36,033 nt of DNA, from the NCBI GenBank assembly GCA_012520395.1, contig JAAYOL010000038.1, forward strand, positions 1 through 36,033. The letters run 5' to 3'. A program made the translations under genes and the position numbers. The first letter of the stretch is position 1, and every line of letters begins with the position of its first letter. Source of the stretch: Clostridiales bacterium. Lineage in GTDB: Bacteria > Bacillota > Clostridia > Oscillospirales > Oscillospiraceae. The notes beneath the pieces are model-generated. The model searched no databases and had not been told where the DNA came from. It was given only the letters and a program-made list of their open reading frames with translations. This document shows, in pieces, positions 8,278-27,832 of this stretch.

Positions 8278-9228
8278 TTAATTGTTATCATCGCTAGCAA
8301 GGGTAAGACCCATCATGGCCAGCTTATTTACGACCTCTTCAAGAGACTTGCGGCCCAGGTTTCTGACCTTCATCATCTCGCTCTCGGTCTTGCTTATGAG
8401 ATCCTCAACCGTGTTGATATTGGCGCGCTTGAGGCAGTTGAAGCTGCGTACAGACAGATCCATTTCCTCAATGGTCATTTCCAGTACCTTATCGCGCTGC
8501 GTCTCAGCCTTCTCAACGACAGTGGAACGGCTGCCGACGCTTTCGCTCAGGTCAGTGAACAGTGCGATATGGTCGCAGAGAATCTTTGCGCCAAGCGATA
8601 TTGCATCTCTTGCCGTAATGGTCTTGTTTGTCCAGACCTCAATTGTGAGCTTGTCAAAGTCCGTCATGTGCCCGACGCGCGTGTTTTCAACCGTGTAGTT
8701 GACCTTTAAGACCGGAGTATAGACGGAATCAACCGGAATCACCCCGATGACCGCCTGCTGGGGCTTGTTGCGCTCTGCGGGGACGTATCCGCGCCCTCTG
8801 CCAAGCGTAAGCTCCATGTTGAGTGTCGCGTCCGGGCCAAGCGTAGCTATATGGAGATCGGGGTTTAATATCTCAACCTCGCTGTCCGTCTTGATATCGC
8901 CCGCCTTGACCTCGCACTCACCGCTGGCTTCAATATAAACTGTTTTTACTTCCTCGCTATGAAGCCTTGCGATTATACCTTTTACGTTAAGCACTATCTC
9001 TGTAACGTCTTCTTTGACACCTGGGATCGTGGAAAACTCATGTGATATACCCGCAATCTTTATCGTTGTGACAGCGGTTCCGGGCAGAGAGGATAAAAGT
9101 ATCCTTCTAAGTGAGTTTCCCAAAGTGGTGCCATACCCACGCTCGAGCGGCTCAACAACATACTTGCCATAGGACTCGTCGCCGGGGGTTTCAAAACATT
9201 CAATACGCGGCTTTTCTATTTCTACCAT
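8278..9228 (-). CDS. rpoA: RNA polymerase subunit alpha
   Basis: The dimerising scaffold subunit of RNA polymerase. At 316 residues it has the full N-terminal assembly domain ([25 protein letters not shown] near residues 26-50) and, after a linker, the C-terminal domain ([22 protein letters not shown], then [11 protein letters not shown]) that contacts UP elements and activators. The open frame extends to a TTG at 9258, but the conserved start [10 protein letters not shown] at 9226-9228 has GGAGGAGGG about 10 bases upstream, so that is chosen. The gap from rpsD is 77 bases, somewhat longer than most in the operon. The presence of an intact C-terminal domain fits the AT-rich stretch upstream of the S10 promoter acting as an UP element. 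Confidence 0.98.
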
Positions 9229-9305
9229 AAATCTGATACCCTCCTCCTGTGCGCTCAATTAAGATGCGCATATTATTCCAGCTTACCAACAATGAGGGCT
9301 GTATT

Positions 9306-9935
9306 TTACTTAGAATAATACTCGACGATGAGGTGCTCCTGGATGGGCAGGTCAATATCGTTCTTCTCGGGAAGAGCTACGACCTTTGCAACCATCGCGT
9401 TTCTGTCAAAGTCAAGCCACTTTGGAGGCTGGCGGAAGGAGTTCGCCTCTATGACCGCTTTTATCTTCTCAAGGCTCTTGGAGGAGTCCTTGAGGCTTAT
9501 AATCTCACCCTGTTTCACGAGGTAGGAAGGAATGTTTACCTTCTTACCGTTTACGGTGAAGTGGCCGTGGCGGACAAGCTGTCTGGCCTCGGCGCGGGAC
9601 ATAGCAAAGCCGAGCCTGTAGACAACGTTGTCAAGACGGCTCTCAAGGATGGACAACAGGTTTTCACCAGTCTGGCCCTTTTTCTTGGAAGCGAGCTCAA
9701 AGTAGCCTTCGAACTGTCTTTCCAGAACGCCGTAATATCTCTTTGCCTTCTGCTTCTCACGGAGCTGTGTGCCATATTCGGAGACCTTGGATCTTCTCCC
9801 CTGGCCATGCTGTCCGGGAGCATAGGGGCGGCGAACGACGGCGCACTTATCGGTATAGCATCTGTCGCCCTTCAGAAAGAGCTTCTGGCCCTCCCTGCGG
9901 CAAAGGCGGCATACTGCGTCTGTATATCTTGCCAT
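9306..9935 (-). CDS. rpsD: 30S ribosomal protein S4 (zinc form)
   Basis: A primary 16S rRNA binder that starts assembly of the small-subunit body and affects accuracy. In several bacteria S4 also represses translation of its own operon. The 209 residues include an N-terminal Cys cluster, VCRLC followed by CYTDKC, marking the C-plus zinc-binding version, and the S4 RNA-binding domain ([24 protein letters not shown]) in the middle. It sits in the alpha block between rpsK and rpoA, downstream of the structured 365-base gap before rpsM. If that gap is a leader, S4 would be the first ligand to test. Confidence 0.98.
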
Positions 9936-9949
9936 ACTACATTTCCTCC

Positions 9950-10354
9950 TTAAACGCGGCGTCTCTTAGGCGGACGGCAGCCATTGTGCGGAATTGGTGT
10001 TACGTCTTTTATCATGGTTACCTCAAGGCCTACGGACTGGAGAGCGCGGATTGCAGCTTCGCGTCCGGCTCCGGGACCCTTAACAAAGACCTCGACGGTC
10101 TTCAGCCCATGCTCCATGGCGGCCCTTGCCGCAGTCTCGGCGGCTGTCTGAGCCGCAAAGGGCGTGGACTTTCTGCTGCCGCGGAAGCCCATACCGCCGG
10201 CGGATGCCCAGGATATGGCGTTGCCATTGGTGTCGGCTATTGTCACCATCGTGTTGTTAAACGAGGAACGGATATGCACCGTGCCCTTTTCAATATTCTT
10301 GCGTTCGCGGCGCTTTGTTCTGACGCGCTGCTTTGCGTTCTTTGAAACTGCCAT
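9950..10354 (-). CDS. rpsK: 30S ribosomal protein S11
   Basis: A platform protein of the small subunit near the mRNA exit and the Shine-Dalgarno helix. The 134 residues contain the family stretches [44 protein letters not shown] and the basic C-terminal [11 protein letters not shown]. It lies 14 bases from rpsD and 15 from rpsM, as usual in the alpha operon. Nothing unusual is seen. Confidence 0.98.
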
Positions 10355-10369
10355 TTACATATCCCTCCC

Positions 10370-10738
10370 TTACTTCTTCTTGTTGGCAATAGTCCTCTTC
10401 GGACCCTTGCGTGTGCGCGCGTTTGTCTTGCTGCGCTGACCTCTTACAGGAAGTCCCTTCCTGTGGCGAAGCCCTCTGTAGCTGCCTATCTCGTTAAGTC
10501 TCTTTATATCGAGCGCAACAGTCCTTCTCAGGTCGCCCTCAACAACATAGTTCTTATCGATGAACTCGCGCAGCCGAGCCTCTTCCTCTTCGGTCAGATC
10601 TTTTACTCTGGTGTCGGGATTGATACCCGTCGCCGCGAGTATGTCCTTTGCTCTTTTCTGGCCAATGCCGAAAACGTAGGTGAGACCTATCTCAATCCTC
10701 TTGTCCCTCGGCAAATCAACGCCGGAAATTCTCGCCAT
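10370..10738 (-). CDS. rpsM: 30S ribosomal protein S13
   Basis: A small-subunit head protein that contacts the large subunit (bridge B1) and, through its basic tail, the P-site tRNA. The 122-residue sequence begins [19 protein letters not shown], has [14 protein letters not shown] and ends [23 protein letters not shown]-like, all standard. It is the first gene of the alpha block. The 365 bases between it and rpmJ are gene-free and rich in inverted repeats, so its translation or the downstream block's expression may depend on that segment. Confidence 0.98.
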
Positions 10739-11103
10739 ACTTGTTAATCATTCCTTTCGTTTAAGTTAAAACGATTGATTGTTCACCGGGCTGCGACTCC
10801 TGCAGCTCCGGGGTTCCGGTTTGGCCGCGTAACCACAGCATACACATTCAAATCTGCTTTTATCCCGAACCTCGGGCGGACGACTGTGCAATAAACCGGG
10901 TCGTTTAATACGGGTTTAAATGTGTACGCTGTGGTTAGTTACGCGGCGCTTGGGGGTGTTCACGCCGAGATGTCCGGATTGGGATCAAGCTTTCGTCGGG
11001 CGAGACGCTCTCAGTCTGAAAAGTATCTGTTCCAGACAAATTACGGCGCCGGACAAAATCTCTCCGCTAAAACCGGAAGCTAACGGAATGTGAACTGAAT
11101 CTA
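10739..11103 (-). other. 365-base structured gap between rpmJ and rpsM
   Basis: No gene fits here. Reading leftward (transcript order) the segment holds three modules: (i) TGTCCGG/CCGGACA, 7 pairs, closing 10971-11055, with inner stems GTCTG/CAGAC (11014-11037) and CGTC/GACG (10994-11007); (ii) a long imperfect hairpin, 10824-10947; (iii) a hairpin of about 9 pairs with one bulged base at 10786-10811. Neighbouring genes in this operon are mostly 10-25 bases apart, so this is an outlier. No convincing promoter is seen. It could be an alpha-block leader RNA or an inserted palindromic element. Confidence 0.6.
10824..10947. repeat. Long imperfect inverted repeat (about 25-pair hairpin)
   Basis: Left arm 10824-10848 (GCCGCGTAA then CCACAGCATACACATT) pairs with right arm 10919-10947. 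Fifteen of 16 inner positions and all 9 outer positions match; the right arm has a 4-base bulge (TTAG, 10935-10938) and there is one A-C mismatch. The 70-base apical part contains CCCGA/TCGGG (10864-10876) and CGAC/GTCG (10881-10903). Confidence 0.8.
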
Positions 11104-11217
11104 TTAACCTTGCCTCTGTTTGTGCTTCGGATTATCGCAAATTACCATGACCTTGCCCTTGCGCCTAATAATCTTACACTTTTCGCACATGGGCTTGACT
11201 GAGGGTCTGACTTTCAT
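11104..11217 (-). CDS. rpmJ: 50S ribosomal protein L36 (zinc form)
   Basis: The 37-residue smallest large-subunit protein. Translation gives [20 protein letters not shown] and ends NPKHKQRQG, with the C-C-C-H zinc knuckle at C11, C14, C27 and H32, so it is the zinc-binding version. AGGTTGTTAGA lies before the ATG. It follows infA by 56 bases. After its stop comes the exceptional 365-base structured gap, where rpsM would normally follow closely. Confidence 0.97.
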
Positions 11218-11273
11218 TCTAACAACCTCCATGTTTAGGTGTCTTTACGGAAACAGGTCTGCCCCGCCTCCGA

Positions 11274-11492
11274 CTACTTACTTCTCCACGTTATACGGCC
11301 ACGAGTCAGGTCGTATGGCGACATCTGTACTGTCACCTTATCTCCGGGCAATATGCGGATGAAATTCATCCTGAGCTTTCCGGAAATGTGTGCGAGTATA
11401 GTATGTCCGTTGCCGATATCAACCGTGAACATCGTGTTGGGCAACGATTCGATAACCCTGCCCTCCAGCTCGATCACATCGTCTTTTGCCAA
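11274..11492 (-). CDS. infA: Translation initiation factor IF-1
   Basis: A 72-residue S1-like OB-fold protein that occupies the ribosomal A site during initiation and aids IF-2 and IF-3. It starts [22 protein letters not shown] and ends with [15 protein letters not shown]; the middle has [20 protein letters not shown], all canonical. Its first 19 bases overlap the end of the preceding KOW-domain gene in another frame, which points to translational coupling. Its place between map and rpmJ is the standard Gram-positive one. Confidence 0.98.
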
Positions 11493-11782
11493 ACGTATGT
11501 TCCTCCCTTGTCATTTCCTGCGCCAGCTTTGAAGGCAGCCAGCGTATTTCTTAATTCCTTGTTTGAAACCTTGCCTCCGTTTTTTATCTTCCAGGCGGTT
11601 TCGGCATCGCTTTCAGCCACGAAGCGAACATGCATTATGTTCTTCCGCTTCGGCTTTTCCAGCTTCCTGCCTTTCCCGTCCGCCAAAAGCACGCTCCTGG
11701 CGTCCCTGTCCAAAACAAAAAACAGCTCTCCTTTGTCTCTCCCGGCAAGGGAAATCACTATATGGGATTTTTCGATTTCCAT
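11474..11782 (-). CDS. KOW-domain RNA-binding protein (L14e-like, COG2163 type)
   Basis: A roughly 100-residue basic protein with an N-terminal KOW-like SH3 barrel: [19 protein letters not shown], then [20 protein letters not shown]. This resembles the L14e/L27e-type proteins (COG2163) found between map and infA in many Clostridia; a role in ribosome or RNA binding is likely but unproven. The C-terminal part, [19 protein letters not shown] onward, is less typical. The map stop and the ATG at 11780-11782 share one base (TGATG), so reinitiation is likely; an ATG two codons upstream is possible. It overlaps infA by 19 bases. Confidence 0.85.
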
Positions 11783-12540
11783 CAGCATATCCCGTCGACC
11801 ACCGTCAGTATTTCCGGTTCGCCGTTTGTGATAAGAACCGTGTTCTCATAGTGTGCCGAGGGCTTACCGTCCGCCGTTACCACAGTCCATCCGTCATTTA
11901 ATAGCCGTATGTCGGCCTTCCCCATGTTTATCATAGGTTCTATAGCCAAGGTCATGCCTGGAATGAGCCGCGGGCCGTGGCCCGGTTTTCCGAAGTTGGG
12001 TACCTGGGGATCCTCGTGGAGCTTTGCGCCCACGCCGTGTCCCACGTATTCTCTAATTACGGAATATCCGAAGGATTCTGCATATGCCTGGATAGCGTGG
12101 GAGATGTCCGACACGCGGTAGCCGGGACGCGCAAGCTTGAGGCCCTCAAAAAAGCTTTGACGGGTGACCTCGATGAGCTTTTCAGCGCTTTCATCTGCCG
12201 CTCCCGCTACAAACGTCGCGGCGCAGTCTCCATGAAAACCTCCCAGGAATGCTCCCACATCGACGCTGACAATGTCGCCCTCTTTGATCATACGGCTGCC
12301 AGGTATCCCATGTATCACCTCATCGTTAATGGAGATGCAAATGCTCCTTGGATAGCCGTTGTAGTTCAAAAAAGAAGGTACCGCCCCCTGCTTGACTATA
12401 AAGTCATGCACAGCTCTGTCGATTTCATAAGTGTGTACGCCGGGCGCTGTCATTTCCCCTGCCAAGGCACGGGCAGCCGCTGCAACAGCGCAGGCACGGC
12501 GCATCAGCTCTATCTCTTTTACAGATTTGATCTGAATCAC
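11782..12540 (-). CDS. map: Methionine aminopeptidase, type I
   Basis: Removes the N-terminal Met from nascent proteins with small second residues. The 252-residue pita-bread fold shows all five expected metal ligands: D94, D105, H168, E201 and E232, and the active-site His in DEVIHGIP (H77). It lacks an N-terminal extension and is therefore the short type Ia form. The start is GTG, overlapping the adk stop by one base (TAGTG), and the next gene's ATG overlaps the map stop, so adk-map-KOW-infA look translationally coupled. This is the usual spc location in Firmicutes. Confidence 0.97.
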   Translation of the reverse strand: MIQIKSVKEIELMRRACAVAAAARALAGEMTAPGVHTYEIDRAVHDFIVKQGAVPSFLNYNGYPRSICISINDEVIHGIPGSRMIKEGDIVSVDVGAFLGGFHGDCAATFVAGAADESAEKLIEVTRQSFFEGLKLARPGYRVSDISHAIQAYAESFGYSVIREYVGHGVGAKLHEDPQVPNFGKPGHGPRLIPGMTLAIEPMINMGKADIRLLNDGWTVVTADGKPSAHYENTVLITNGEPEILTVVDGIC

Positions 12541-23692: not shown

Positions 23693-24007
23693 TTAAAGCT
23701 TAATCTCAATCTCAACGCCAGCCGGAAGCTCAAGAGACATGAGAGCCTCAATGGTCTTCTGCGAGGGGTTTAAGATGTCGATAAGGCGCTTGTGCGTTCT
23801 GCGCTCAAACTGCTCGCGGCTGTCCTTGTACTTGTGTACCGCGCGAAGGATAGTGACAACTTCCTTCTTGGTCGGCAGAGGGATGGGTCCTGCCACCTTT
23901 GCGTCTGTGCGCTTGGCCGTCTCAACGATACGCTCAGCCGACTGGTCGATGAGCTGATGGTCATAGGCCTTTAGTCTGATTCTGATCATTTTCTTTGCTG
24001 CTGCCAT
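23693..24007 (-). CDS. rpsJ: 30S ribosomal protein S10
   Basis: A small-subunit head protein that also pairs with NusB in transcription antitermination. The 104 residues include [41 protein letters not shown] and [20 protein letters not shown], standard S10. It is the first gene of the S10 operon, preceded by a leader of about 320 bases. The str-operon genes (rpsL, rpsG, fusA, tuf) that often sit upstream are not present here; a divergent gene follows instead. Confidence 0.98.
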
Positions 24008-24329
24008 TGGTTTTTCCTCCTTAAGCGTACGTTTTGCGGTATTTTACCGCTGTTGCGTACGGATGAAAAATTCTGTCCACTTTACCGTGCGTATCATTCT
24101 GGCCCAAAAATCTCACCGGCATGTTGAGCCGGCGCATCTCTGTTACAGCGATATACGCAAAAAGGCGTAAAGCGCTTAGGTACAGACATTTTTCAGCCGC
24201 CCGATTGATAGGATCTCGCATGTTCGAAACCCACGGACATACTCTGCGAAAGTTACCTCGGAAAACCGAGCAATCTCCCGCTTCATCGCATTTTTTTGCG
24301 CACTTAGGGCATGTATCTGCACAAGGCGC
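24008..24329 (-). promoter_or_regulatory. Long structured S10 leader
   Basis: Between the predicted start near 24329 and the rpsJ ATG lie about 320 gene-free bases. Stems seen are CGCA/TGCG (24287-24300), CTCGG-AAAA-CCGAG (24257-24270), TACGC/GCGTA (24154-24169), CCGGC/GCCGG (24116-24132), and a two-part hairpin nearest rpsJ: CGTACG (24026-24031 with 24056-24061) around GCGGTA-TTT-TACCGC (24036-24050). None is followed by a T-run, so attenuation by termination is not obvious. Two open frames inside (24021-24221, 24176-24364) lack ribosome sites. Confidence 0.6.
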
Positions 24330-24527: not shown

Positions 24528-25673
24528 GTGAAAAAAATCGCATTCATTATAGTTTGTGCTATTTGCGTCGCAATTATACTGTCTCTGAGTCCCGCCGGGA
24601 GCGCCTCCGATACATATTATTTTATAGTTATCAACGACAGGCCCGAGCCTCTCCAAAAGGATAGTATCCCCATAGAGTATAACGGCGTTATGTACGCACC
24701 TCTTTCGGTTTTTGGCAGCACTGTCCTCAAAACCTATCCCATTACCGACCATAAAAGCAGGATAGCTACAATATACTCCACATCCCATTTCCTCAGATTT
24801 CAAATAGGCGGCGATACCCGTGACGATGAAAACAACGCCTATTCCTTCAAGGCAATAATGATTAACCAATCTTTTTATGTGCCCGTAAAAGAGGTCTGTA
24901 ACTTCTTCGGCTTTGGCTATTCTGTTGTAAAAGAATCTGTCGCCCCTCCCTTTATCAGGATAACGAACTCCGGCGCCACTCTCTCAGACGCAGCCTTTGC
25001 AAAGGCTGCGGCACAGAAAATGCAGTCACTTTTCAGTGAGTTTCTCAACTCCTTCGCCCCCTCCCCGACTCCCACCCCAACTCCGCCCCCGCCCACTCCC
25101 ACGCCCTCCGGCACAGTTCAACCCGAGGTGAGCGTGTATCTCAGCTTCTTTGGCGCGGGAGAGGAAACCTTACGGGCTCTAAACCTGCTGAGCTTGTATG
25201 GGGATAGGGCATGCTTTTTCTTTACACCCGATGAAATCCGCGAAAACGCAGGCTTAGTGCGGCGGATTTCGGCGCTCGGCCACAGCATCGGCCTCGTATG
25301 CTCAGAAAACCTGCTGGAGGATTATGAGACGGGTTCAAAGCTCCTGTTCGAGGCCGCGAGGATAAAGAGTGTTCTTATCGCCCTTGACTGTGAGTACAGC
25401 TGGTATCTGGGGGAGCTTGCCAGGGAAGCCGGACTAATAATCTGGTGCGACTCCGGAATAAGAATGTATGGCAGGGATTCATCCCTATATCTATGGCAGC
25501 TCACATATCCGCTCAGCCTTGAGGACGAGCGGGCCGACCTCGCCATCTACTGCTCGGAAAGCTCTCTTTCCGTACTAAGCGGCTTTTTCGCCTATATGTA
25601 TAGAAACAACTTTTCGGTTAAGCCCATTAACGAAATCGCGGAAACTTATTTGAACTCAAACGGGGTGTATTGA
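24528..25673 (+). CDS. Secreted protein: copper-amine-oxidase-N-like domain plus inactive NodB-like domain
   Basis: A 381-residue exported protein. It has a signal peptide (MKKIAFIIVCAICVAIILSL, cleavage near SAS-D at 25-28). Residues about 30-150 resemble the copper amine oxidase N-terminal-like domain of clostridial surface proteins (IPIEYNGVMYAPLSVF, later SFYVPVKEVCNFFGF). A Pro/Thr linker (about 179-195) follows. Residues 200-375 follow the NodB polysaccharide-deacetylase plan: VYLSFFGAGEETLRALNLL in place of the TFDDGP segment, then RACFFF, then ISALGHSIGLVCSE where active enzymes have GHEIGNHTxSH. The metal-binding Asp and His residues are missing, so it is probably a glycan-binding or scaffold pseudo-enzyme. 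The start is GTG with a GGGGGG ribosome site; its stop overlaps the next ATG. Confidence 0.75.
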   Translation: MKKIAFIIVCAICVAIILSLSPAGSASDTYYFIVINDRPEPLQKDSIPIEYNGVMYAPLSVFGSTVLKTYPITDHKSRIATIYSTSHFLRFQIGGDTRDDENNAYSFKAIMINQSFYVPVKEVCNFFGFGYSVVKESVAPPFIRITNSGATLSDAAFAKAAAQKMQSLFSEFLNSFAPSPTPTPTPPPPTPTPSGTVQPEVSVYLSFFGAGEETLRALNLLSLYGDRACFFFTPDEIRENAGLVRRISALGHSIGLVCSENLLEDYETGSKLLFEAARIKSVLIALDCEYSWYLGELAREAGLIIWCDSGIRMYGRDSSLYLWQLTYPLSLEDERADLAIYCSESSLSVLSGFFAYMYRNNFSVKPINEIAETYLNSNGVY

Positions 25674-26407
25674 TGAAAGAAAATCTCAGAGCGGTGGTCC
25701 TCGCCGCGGGTAAGGGTACGCGCCTTAAGTCCGAGTCACACGACCTTCCCAAGGTTATGCGCCTGGCGGCCGGCCGCCCGCTTTTGGCCCATGTGCTCTC
25801 CTCACTCGACTTTATCGCCGCAGAGAACACAGTTATTGTGGTCGGCTATAAGAAGGATGCCGTCATATCCGCCTTCCCCGGCTACTCTTTCGCAGAACAG
25901 CGGGAGCAGTTGGGCACGGGGCATGCGGTAATGGCCGCAGCCGAGGCACTCGAGGGTTTTGACGGCTGCGTTCTCGTCTGCTGCGGTGATATGCCGCTTA
26001 TAAAGAGGAAGAGCCTGCTGGCCCTGGTCGACACTCATTTCGCGGAGAAAAACACCTGTACTATACTCAGCGGCACCTCGGACGAACCGCTTGATTACGG
26101 AAGGATAGTGCGAGATGCTGACGGCGCCTTTCTCAGAATGGTCGAGCATAAGGACTGTAATGAGGAGGAGCGTAAAATACGGGAGCTTAACAGTGGGGTT
26201 TATACATTCCAGGCCCCTGCCCTGCTCCGTGCGCTCTCAAAGCTGAGCCGCAACAATTCCCAGGGCGAGTATTACCTCACAGACGTACCGGCTATTTTGA
26301 AGTCAGAGGGTAAAAAGGTGGGCATATGCAACCGCCACTTAGGCTTAGAGCTTCTGGGTGTGAACACCCCCGAACAGCTCAGCCGTGTTGAGGAGCTTCT
26401 GAAATAA
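25673..26407 (+). CDS. GlmU-like uridylyltransferase domain protein (no acetyltransferase half)
   Basis: A 244-residue sugar-1-phosphate nucleotidyltransferase. The N-terminal VVLAAGKGTRLKSESHDLPKV is the pyrophosphorylase signature; REQLGTGHAVMA, CCGDMPLI, DYGRIVRDADG, HKDCNEEER and NNSQGEYYLTDVP follow as in GlmU. GlmU is normally about 450 residues with a C-terminal left-handed beta-helix that acetylates glucosamine-1-phosphate; this one stops at LGVNTPEQLSRVEELLK, just where the linker would begin. It would thus make a UDP-sugar, likely UDP-GlcNAc from GlcNAc-1-phosphate, but substrate is inferred. ATG overlaps the upstream stop by one base (TGATG), so the two are coupled. A terminator follows. 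Confidence 0.85.
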   Translation: MKENLRAVVLAAGKGTRLKSESHDLPKVMRLAAGRPLLAHVLSSLDFIAAENTVIVVGYKKDAVISAFPGYSFAEQREQLGTGHAVMAAAEALEGFDGCVLVCCGDMPLIKRKSLLALVDTHFAEKNTCTILSGTSDEPLDYGRIVRDADGAFLRMVEHKDCNEEERKIRELNSGVYTFQAPALLRALSKLSRNNSQGEYYLTDVPAILKSEGKKVGICNRHLGLELLGVNTPEQLSRVEELLK

Positions 26408-26413
26408 ATATCA

Positions 26414-26440
26414 AACTCCCGTGCTTTCGGCACGGGAGTT
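26414..26440. terminator. Bidirectional terminator between convergent genes
   Basis: AACTCCCGTGC (26414-26424) and GCACGGGAGTT (26430-26440) form an 11-pair stem with a TTTCG loop. It is followed rightward by ATTGTTTCT and leftward by TTTGATATTTATTTC, so it can end both the 25673 gene and the leftward gene ending at 26512. Confidence 0.85.
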
Positions 26441-26511
26441 ATTGTTTCTGGACACTTAATTATCTCATTCTTCGGAAATCAAGTATTGACACGAATTTCA
26501 GAAATGTAAGA

Positions 26512-27780
26512 CTAGGGTCTTTTTGACTCGGCCTTCTCTTTGGCCACCGCAAGCATCAGCCTTATGCGGTTTTCCTGGTTGACCCTCGCGGCGCCCGGGT
26601 CGTAGTCTATCGCTACGATGTTGGCACCGGGCATCAGTTCGCTGAGCCTTCTTATCTCGCCCTTGCCGCAAATGTGATTCGGCAGACAGCCGAAGGGTTG
26701 TGTGCAGACGATATTGCAGTAGCCAAGCTCTATAAGCTCAACCATTTCGGCCGGCAGCAGCCATCCCTCACCCATGCACATCCCAAGTCCGATTATTCCC
26801 TCCGCGTTCTTCTTAAGCTGCGAAAAGGGTGCGGGGGCAGTAAAGCGGGGATATGGCCCGAGGGCATCTATGAGGTGTTGATGGAGCCTGCTCAAGTATT
26901 TTACGGCGAACCTGCTTATCAACAGCTTACCGAGGGGCGTGCCATAGAGCCTTTTGTTTTCCTGCTCAATATTGAGACTGTAAAAGGCAAAGCCCAGAAG
27001 CCCGGGTACCATGACCTCGCAGCCCTGCCTGACGAGGAAGCTCTCCAGGTTGTTGTTCCCTACTGCGGAATACTTGACGTAGAGCTCGCCGACTATTCCG
27101 ACCTTTATCCTGCTTGGCCCGGCGATTATTCTTACCGAGGCGAAGTCCGCCGCTATGGCGGCAAGGTTTTTTCTTATATTGCCTTTGCCGAGCCCTTTTT
27201 GATTTTTAAACTGCCCGGAAATCTTATAAACCCATTCATCCGTGAGCCTCTGGCTTTCCCCAGGTCTTGCTTCATAGGGCATAACCTGATTTTTCAGCAG
27301 CATGAGCATGTCCGCATAAAGCCAGGCGGTAAGGGCCATCCTCAGCATGGGCATCGTTATTTTAAAGCCGCTGTTCTTTTCAATGCCTCCGTAGCACAGT
27401 GAAATAACAGGTACCTTTTCAAAGCCGCTTTTTGCAAGTGCCTTGCGCAGAAGATGGACATAATTTGAGGCGCGGCAACCGCCGCCCGTCTGGTAGAGCA
27501 TGAGGGCGGTTTTTTCGTTATCGTATTTACCGCTCTCAAGGGCACGCATAAACTGGCCTATGACGACTATGGCGGGGTAGCAGATGTCATTGTGCACATA
27601 GCGTAGCCCGGCCTCGACGGCGCTCTCCGTCTCCTCCTGCAGGATTTCGACCTTATATCCGTGAAGCCTGAAAATGCTGCGCATAAGCTCGAAATGAATG
27701 GGCGCCATGTTAGGGATGAGTATGGTATACTCATCCCTCATTTTCGGTGTGAACTCTATTCTGTTTAAGCCTTCCGCCAT
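26512..27780 (-). CDS. COG3581-type 2-hydroxyacyl-CoA dehydratase relative
   Basis: About 422 residues, related to the HgdB/DUF2229 group: proteins linked to 2-hydroxyacyl-CoA dehydratases and their BadF/HgdC-type activases. Visible marks are the Cys in HNDICYPAIV, the glycine-rich QTGGGCRASNYVHLLRKAL, CYGGIEKNSGFK, GIVGELYVKYSA, FGCLPNHICGKGEIRRL and DYDPGAARVNQENRIRLM; several Cys could ligate a [4Fe-4S] cluster. No substrate can be named. The frame is open to a GTG at 27813, inside a hairpin; the ATG at 27778-27780 is preferred but its ribosome site is weak. The usual large activase partner is not adjacent: upstream is a terminator and downstream a convergent gene. Confidence 0.75.
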   Translation of the reverse strand: MAEGLNRIEFTPKMRDEYTILIPNMAPIHFELMRSIFRLHGYKVEILQEETESAVEAGLRYVHNDICYPAIVVIGQFMRALESGKYDNEKTALMLYQTGGGCRASNYVHLLRKALAKSGFEKVPVISLCYGGIEKNSGFKITMPMLRMALTAWLYADMLMLLKNQVMPYEARPGESQRLTDEWVYKISGQFKNQKGLGKGNIRKNLAAIAADFASVRIIAGPSRIKVGIVGELYVKYSAVGNNNLESFLVRQGCEVMVPGLLGFAFYSLNIEQENKRLYGTPLGKLLISRFAVKYLSRLHQHLIDALGPYPRFTAPAPFSQLKKNAEGIIGLGMCMGEGWLLPAEMVELIELGYCNIVCTQPFGCLPNHICGKGEIRRLSELMPGANIVAIDYDPGAARVNQENRIRLMLAVAKEKAESKRP

Positions 27781-27809
27781 AGCTGAATTACCCGCTTCTG
27801 TACTATTTA

Positions 27810-27832
27810 CCACAGCCTGAAGCCGGCTGTGG
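27810..27832 (-). other. Hairpin in the leader of the COG3581-type gene
   Basis: CCACAGCC (27810-27817) pairs with GGCTGTGG (27825-27832), 8 pairs with a 7-base loop. Rightward it is followed by a T-rich stretch but there is no rightward gene nearby. It overlaps the alternative GTG start at 27813. Confidence 0.5.

Follow-up and report, generated by a model that had tools for sequence, protein, structure and literature searches.

The 365 bases between rpmJ and rpsM (10739..11103, minus strand) in the window, as we call the whole 36,033-nt stretch of DNA analysed here, are best read as an alpha-operon leader RNA that acts in cis and is young and specific to the lineage. This is the most economical reading, and we give it about an even chance. 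The invariance of its stem suggests that the element is functional, and its position, together with the analogy to other bacteria, suggests that it would regulate the downstream block rpsM-rpsK-rpsD-rpoA. A new alpha-block leader RNA had been proposed in an earlier, sequence-only reading of this DNA, and it has become the best supported of the possibilities raised there, as the element is present in single copy, is bound to one locus in three congeners and mainly keeps its structure on the sense strand.

Both the spc and the alpha ribosomal blocks lie on the minus strand of the window. Upstream of the gap is rpmJ (L36; 11104-11232, Pfam PF00444), and downstream follow, on the same strand, rpsM (S13; 10370-10738, PF00416), rpsK (S11; 9950-10354, PF00411), rpsD (S4; 9306-9935, PF00163) and rpoA, called as an open reading frame (8278-9258). 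The gap measures exactly 365 bases and holds no plausible gene, as the sequence-only reading had stated. Its open reading frames reach merely 34-57 aa, and a hidden gene was rejected because indels of 6, 2, 1, 1 and 1 bases relative to a congener break the frame, so that no reading frame is conserved. Further upstream, between infA and map, a 104-aa open reading frame (11474-11788, minus strand) has no Pfam match at 1e-3; its position suggests the KOW-type protein that is common there in Clostridia.

On the transcribed (minus) strand the gap is predicted to fold at -132.5 kcal/mol, whereas its dinucleotide shuffles reach -97.0 ± 6.0 kcal/mol (z -5.9). The plus strand gives a similarly extreme value (z -6.8), as expected with a dominant inverted repeat, and energy alone therefore does not give the strand. 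The long hairpin, 7-pair stem and bulged hairpin named from the sequence are all present and lie where they had been placed, in a gap far more structured than its shuffles. They had been described in plus-strand terms, and this orientation did not hold: transcription follows the minus strand, so that the 7-pair stem comes first, on the 5' side of the long hairpin, and the bulged hairpin adjoins rpsM.

Read from its 5' end, the predicted RNA contains a 5' domain (10967..11062) closed by a stem of 7 pairs (10971-10977/11049-11055) together with an outer stem of 4 pairs. This domain is kept in the congener G001, where its changes are G-U compatible, and is absent from G003. It is followed by the long imperfect hairpin (10824..10947), with 29 pairs (8 + 21) and a 62-nt inner region, which is found in the fold and in G001 and is shorter in G003. 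Its invariant arms are, in RNA sense, ACCACAGCGTACACA on the 5' side (10921..10935) and TGTGTATGCTGTGGT on the 3' side (10832..10846), and they pair with one conserved G-U. In the three-sequence consensus fold, a closing helix of TTCCGGT (11072-11078) and ACCGGAA (10814-10820) encloses the 5' domain and the long hairpin (10814..11078). Next to rpsM stand the small bulged hairpin (10784..10811), in which four pairs are changed yet still paired in G001 and two are broken, and an rpsM-proximal module (10739..10785) made of a TCGTTT/AAACGA hairpin, the Shine-Dalgarno sequence AAAGGA (10752-10757) and a spacer. All of these features are on the minus strand.

A search with the element gave matches in all four other genomes of the genus examined, each at rpsM. 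The gap measures 365 nt in the window, 353 nt in G001, 184 nt in G003, 115 nt in G004 and 392 nt in G002. G001 is 75% identical to the window over 360 nt, and in G003 the arms of the hairpin are shared, as are the 47 nt nearest to rpsM (94% identity). G004 and G002 (loci L004 and L005) share just the last 31-37 nt, which are common to all five congeners; their gaps contain an unrelated single-copy palindrome, TGTAGGGCCG..CGGCCCTACA, and in G002 a further 276-nt insertion stands between this palindrome and the rpsM-proximal module. Among 132 distinct rpmJ-rpsM gaps, lengths range from 14 to 463 nt and half are 45 nt or shorter. The genus closest by rpsM has a 32-nt gap and the nearest other genera have gaps of 32-36 nt, which indicates that rpsM can in general be expressed without the element. 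These short gaps, together with the unrelated palindrome in two congeners, speak against a leader and show that the window element lacks deep conservation. The nearest named records are Oscillospiraceae/Ruminococcaceae MAGs, and the best named isolate is Sporobacter termitidis.

The hairpin arms at 10832-10846 and 10921-10935 are letter-for-letter identical in three species (window, G001 and G003). Third codon positions of rpsM agree at 0.72 between window and G001, 0.70 between window and G003 and 0.66 between G001 and G003, and those of rpsK at 0.61 between window and G003, with the out-of-frame rpsK comparisons to G001 and G011 left aside. Identity of both arms despite the third-position divergence of rpsM therefore calls for selection or a very special history. 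Within the hairpin core, 17 of the 21 pairs are invariant in the three species, 15 of them consecutive, with the G-U conserved at the same pair; of the other four, three show compatible variation and one is broken in G003. Divergence is free in the inner region of the hairpin and in its outer flank.

As the 17 core pairs never vary, they say nothing about pairing. The consensus fold of window and G001 reaches -86 on the sense strand, against -46 ± 5 for column-shuffled alignments (z -7.5), with a z of -4.5 for the antisense strand; when G003 is added, both strands are alike (sense -6.7, antisense -6.6). In the helices compared between window and G001, nine changes affect one side only; on the sense strand they leave a G-U pair, whereas on the opposite strand they would be A-C mismatches. 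Five two-sided changes keep the pair and four touch a broken pair, two of these as A-C, in a count that leans towards structure because RNAalifold picked the pairs. The comparison covers the hairpin in three sequences and the whole element in two, and at this depth the compatible changes are moderate evidence for a sense-strand RNA. The sequence-only reading had asked for covarying stems in related gaps and for gaps that are not short in close relatives. The outcome was mixed: compatible changes were found, in two to three sequences only, and the gaps of the nearest genera turned out short.

In the minimum-energy fold of the bare leader, CATTCC at the 5' end pairs with GGAATG at the Shine-Dalgarno sequence, and this is kept in the congener. 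However, the pairing vanishes once rpsM codons are included, and masking by the leader 5' end was rejected. With 45 nt of rpsM, Shine-Dalgarno exposure is 0.44 for the full leader and 0.45 when the first 30 nt are removed; it is 0.44 for the last 45 nt only and 0.46 ± 0.18 with the upstream part shuffled. Exposure is thus equal with and without the leader, and folding gives no support to simple Shine-Dalgarno masking. The candidate left is that a protein recognizes the stem, either as feedback by S4, S11 or S13 or as processing by a double-strand RNase.

In the feedback form, which is the likeliest mode of the leader reading, the rpmJ-rpsM transcript would carry a structured RNA in which the closing helix holds the 5' domain and the long hairpin together, with the small hairpin and then the rpsM start region on its 3' side. 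A protein made by the block, or another RNA-binding protein, would recognize the invariant stem, and this would lower expression of the rpsM-rpsK-rpsD-rpoA block that the element may control. S4 is a tentative and on balance improbable choice of ligand, taken from precedent: unrelated alpha-operon leaders of other lineages have S4 as their confirmed or proposed ligand (PMC7247131), which is the only ground for naming it. The S4 response suggested in the sequence-only reading goes back to operon content. Mimicry of rRNA was sought in E. coli 16S, where neither the arms nor the core of R1, a second RNA described below, had an above-chance match; in 800 kb of a complete genome, no 16S gene of the family was found. 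About 98 of the 132 gaps end in 20-30 nt resembling GAAAGGA(A/T)TGATT, conserved beyond the Shine-Dalgarno sequence and sometimes surrounded by a small hairpin. Across the family this hairpin is weak (mean -2.09 kcal/mol, against -1.55 ± 0.14 kcal/mol when arms are shuffled between species).

The alternative that survives best, although we regard it as unlikely, is a processing or stability hairpin at the junction of the spc-block and alpha-block messages, which RNase III would cut or which would protect an mRNA end, with no ligand and no feedback. A stem of 29 pairs suits RNase III as a substrate, and a stable long hairpin occurs in the gap of all five congeners in the form of two unrelated sequences. 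The lack of effect on predicted start-site exposure fits as well. This explanation, however, leaves the sequence invariance of the arms, beyond their pairing, unaccounted for.

The sequence-only reading had also considered an inserted palindromic element. Like MITE or REP palindromic repeats, the window element has inverted arms with a variable middle, but those repeats are multi-copy and this one is repeated nowhere. Searched against their own genome, the whole element and the hairpin alone each occur in one place, and the other matches are 14-19 nt long, at chance level. As an inverted pair, the 15-nt arm was found among 300 family genomes at this locus only, in the window's own genome (G000), G001 and G003; the other 297 genomes contain three single unpaired arms, about 2.5 being expected by chance according to our own estimate. 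With one copy, and paired arms only at the rpsM locus, a dispersed repeat was therefore rejected, and so was a viral origin, as the exact two-arm pattern was not found in viral contigs.

A functionless relic of a MITE-like insertion that the intergenic site tolerates, the arms being its terminal inverted repeats, is a different matter. Conserved ends around a divergent interior would suit such a relic, as would the short gaps in relatives and the turnover suggested by the unrelated palindrome in two congeners and the 276-nt insertion in G002. It is nevertheless rather improbable. Its single copy in every genome and its absence from viral contigs speak against it, no target duplication was seen, and the flanks continue the inverted repeat. 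Moreover, neutral decay would not spare 30 identical bases at about 0.65-0.70 third-position identity. Least probable, and quite doubtful, is a site acting at the DNA level, where a DNA-binding protein would read an inverted pair of half-sites (ACCACAGCRTACACA) of an operator or a recombinase; this suits the invariance of the sequence itself rather than of pairing alone but not the differing half-site spacing (89, 87 and 59 nt start to start), the lack of a second such pair in the genomes or the changes near the arms that favour sense-strand G-U.

The preferred reading, a leader RNA of the alpha operon, agrees with the occurrence of ribosomal leaders only ahead of r-protein genes, as the element stands at rpsM in all three congeners that have it. 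It resembles none of the leaders known from this position. The E. coli alpha-operon leader is an S4-binding nested pseudoknot directly ahead of rpsM. Its position and operon content are like those of the window locus, but the window element is longer and has a long hairpin instead of the nested pseudoknot; Alpha_RBS, the Rfam family of this pseudoknot leader, has no match in the gap. The impression that the layout does not look like the E. coli motif was therefore correct. The whole of Rfam gave no match in the gap at gathering score and chance-level models only at permissive E-values, so that no known family is matched above chance.

In Clostridia, the S4-Clostridia leader RF03140 precedes rpsM-rpsK-rpsD-rpoA-rplQ (Eckert and Weinberg, 2020; PMC7247131). 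It stands ahead of the same operon as the window element but is made of two short hairpins in 55 positions, to which the latter bears no resemblance. RF03140 has no match in the window at its gathering score of 37.5, nor at E up to 5 in 10400-11300, nor in 18 rpsM loci of the family, and its cut-off was reached in none of 147 genomes of the order. A literature search found no paper on an rpsM leader in the family, and rpsM goes unmentioned in a survey of 50 bacterial genomes.

Of the 57 distinct family gaps longer than 80 nt, 34 contain a different RNA, R1, which is compact and conserved. It shares with the window element its place, its structured character and its lack of an Rfam match, but is unlike it in form, with 76 positions written as CCCGCAUG..CUCCCUCCGGCGGGA..AAGCC..AUGCGG. 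In order, it comprises UCCCGCAUGG, a variable helix, the constant core CUCCCUCCGGCGGGANNAAG, the return strand and AUGCGG, and is followed by the Shine-Dalgarno sequence. Its invariant core is CUCCCUCCGGCGGGA..AAG, and its carriers include L011, L012, L020, L030, L118, L121, L137, L140 and L155. The R1 model matches 36 loci. At 28 bits or more it was found in 11 of 120 family genomes, each time directly ahead of rpsM, and six weaker matches elsewhere in these genomes look like noise. A shallow search without positive control gave no match in 245 genomes drawn from the order. R1 is absent from the window gap (best score 9.8 bits, E 0.8, with filters off) and from the window's congeners.

In a plain MAFFT alignment of R1 (n = 29), 93% of cells are paired, compared to 88.5% with partners shuffled and at most 46% when slid, and the covariation score is 0.202, compared to 0.117 and at most 0.100, respectively. 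Under a tree-keeping null, a single pair reaches significance on the MAFFT alignment (E 0.0009), and three pairs do so on the alignment fitted to the model. Covariation in these alignments supports the middle helix of R1, and the predicted outer and apical helices are mostly invariant. A variant in L116 (1016-1128) has a lengthened apical hairpin (CCCGCCGG..CCGGCGGG), which supports the CCC/GGG core pairing. Carrier L137 has a near-perfect sigma-70 promoter, TTGACA-18-TAAAAT, further upstream, as do some other carriers, where R1 would thus be a true 5' leader. R1 is a good candidate for a new ribosomal leader, stronger than the window's own element, and lends itself in particular to binding assays with S4, S11 and S13.

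The presence in related genera of an unrelated conserved RNA in the same gap, only ahead of rpsM, indicates that the site is used for leader RNAs in the family. Unrelated leader RNAs seem to displace one another in this gap. It counts against the leader reading that the ribosomal leaders known so far are conserved in their loops and junctions and not in an extended plain duplex. An alpha-operon leader read through a long sequence-invariant duplex, in a gap where R1, the window RNA and the third palindrome have replaced one another, is a speculative proposal, but if true it would be unlike the known ribosomal leaders. The window element and R1 would also fill a gap in an order with almost no recognized alpha-operon leader, and would show unrelated regulators rapidly succeeding one another at a single fixed site.

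Elsewhere in the window, the Rfam S10-Clostridia leader RF03136 is matched at 24220-24294 (minus strand) with 35.7 bits against a cut-off of 35.1, and stands about 212 nt upstream of rpsJ (23693-24007). A hairpin, ACTCCCGTGC..GCACGGGAGT, at 26409-26445 lies between the convergent genes 25670-26407 (plus strand) and 26512-27813 (minus strand), and is probably the shared terminator of both.
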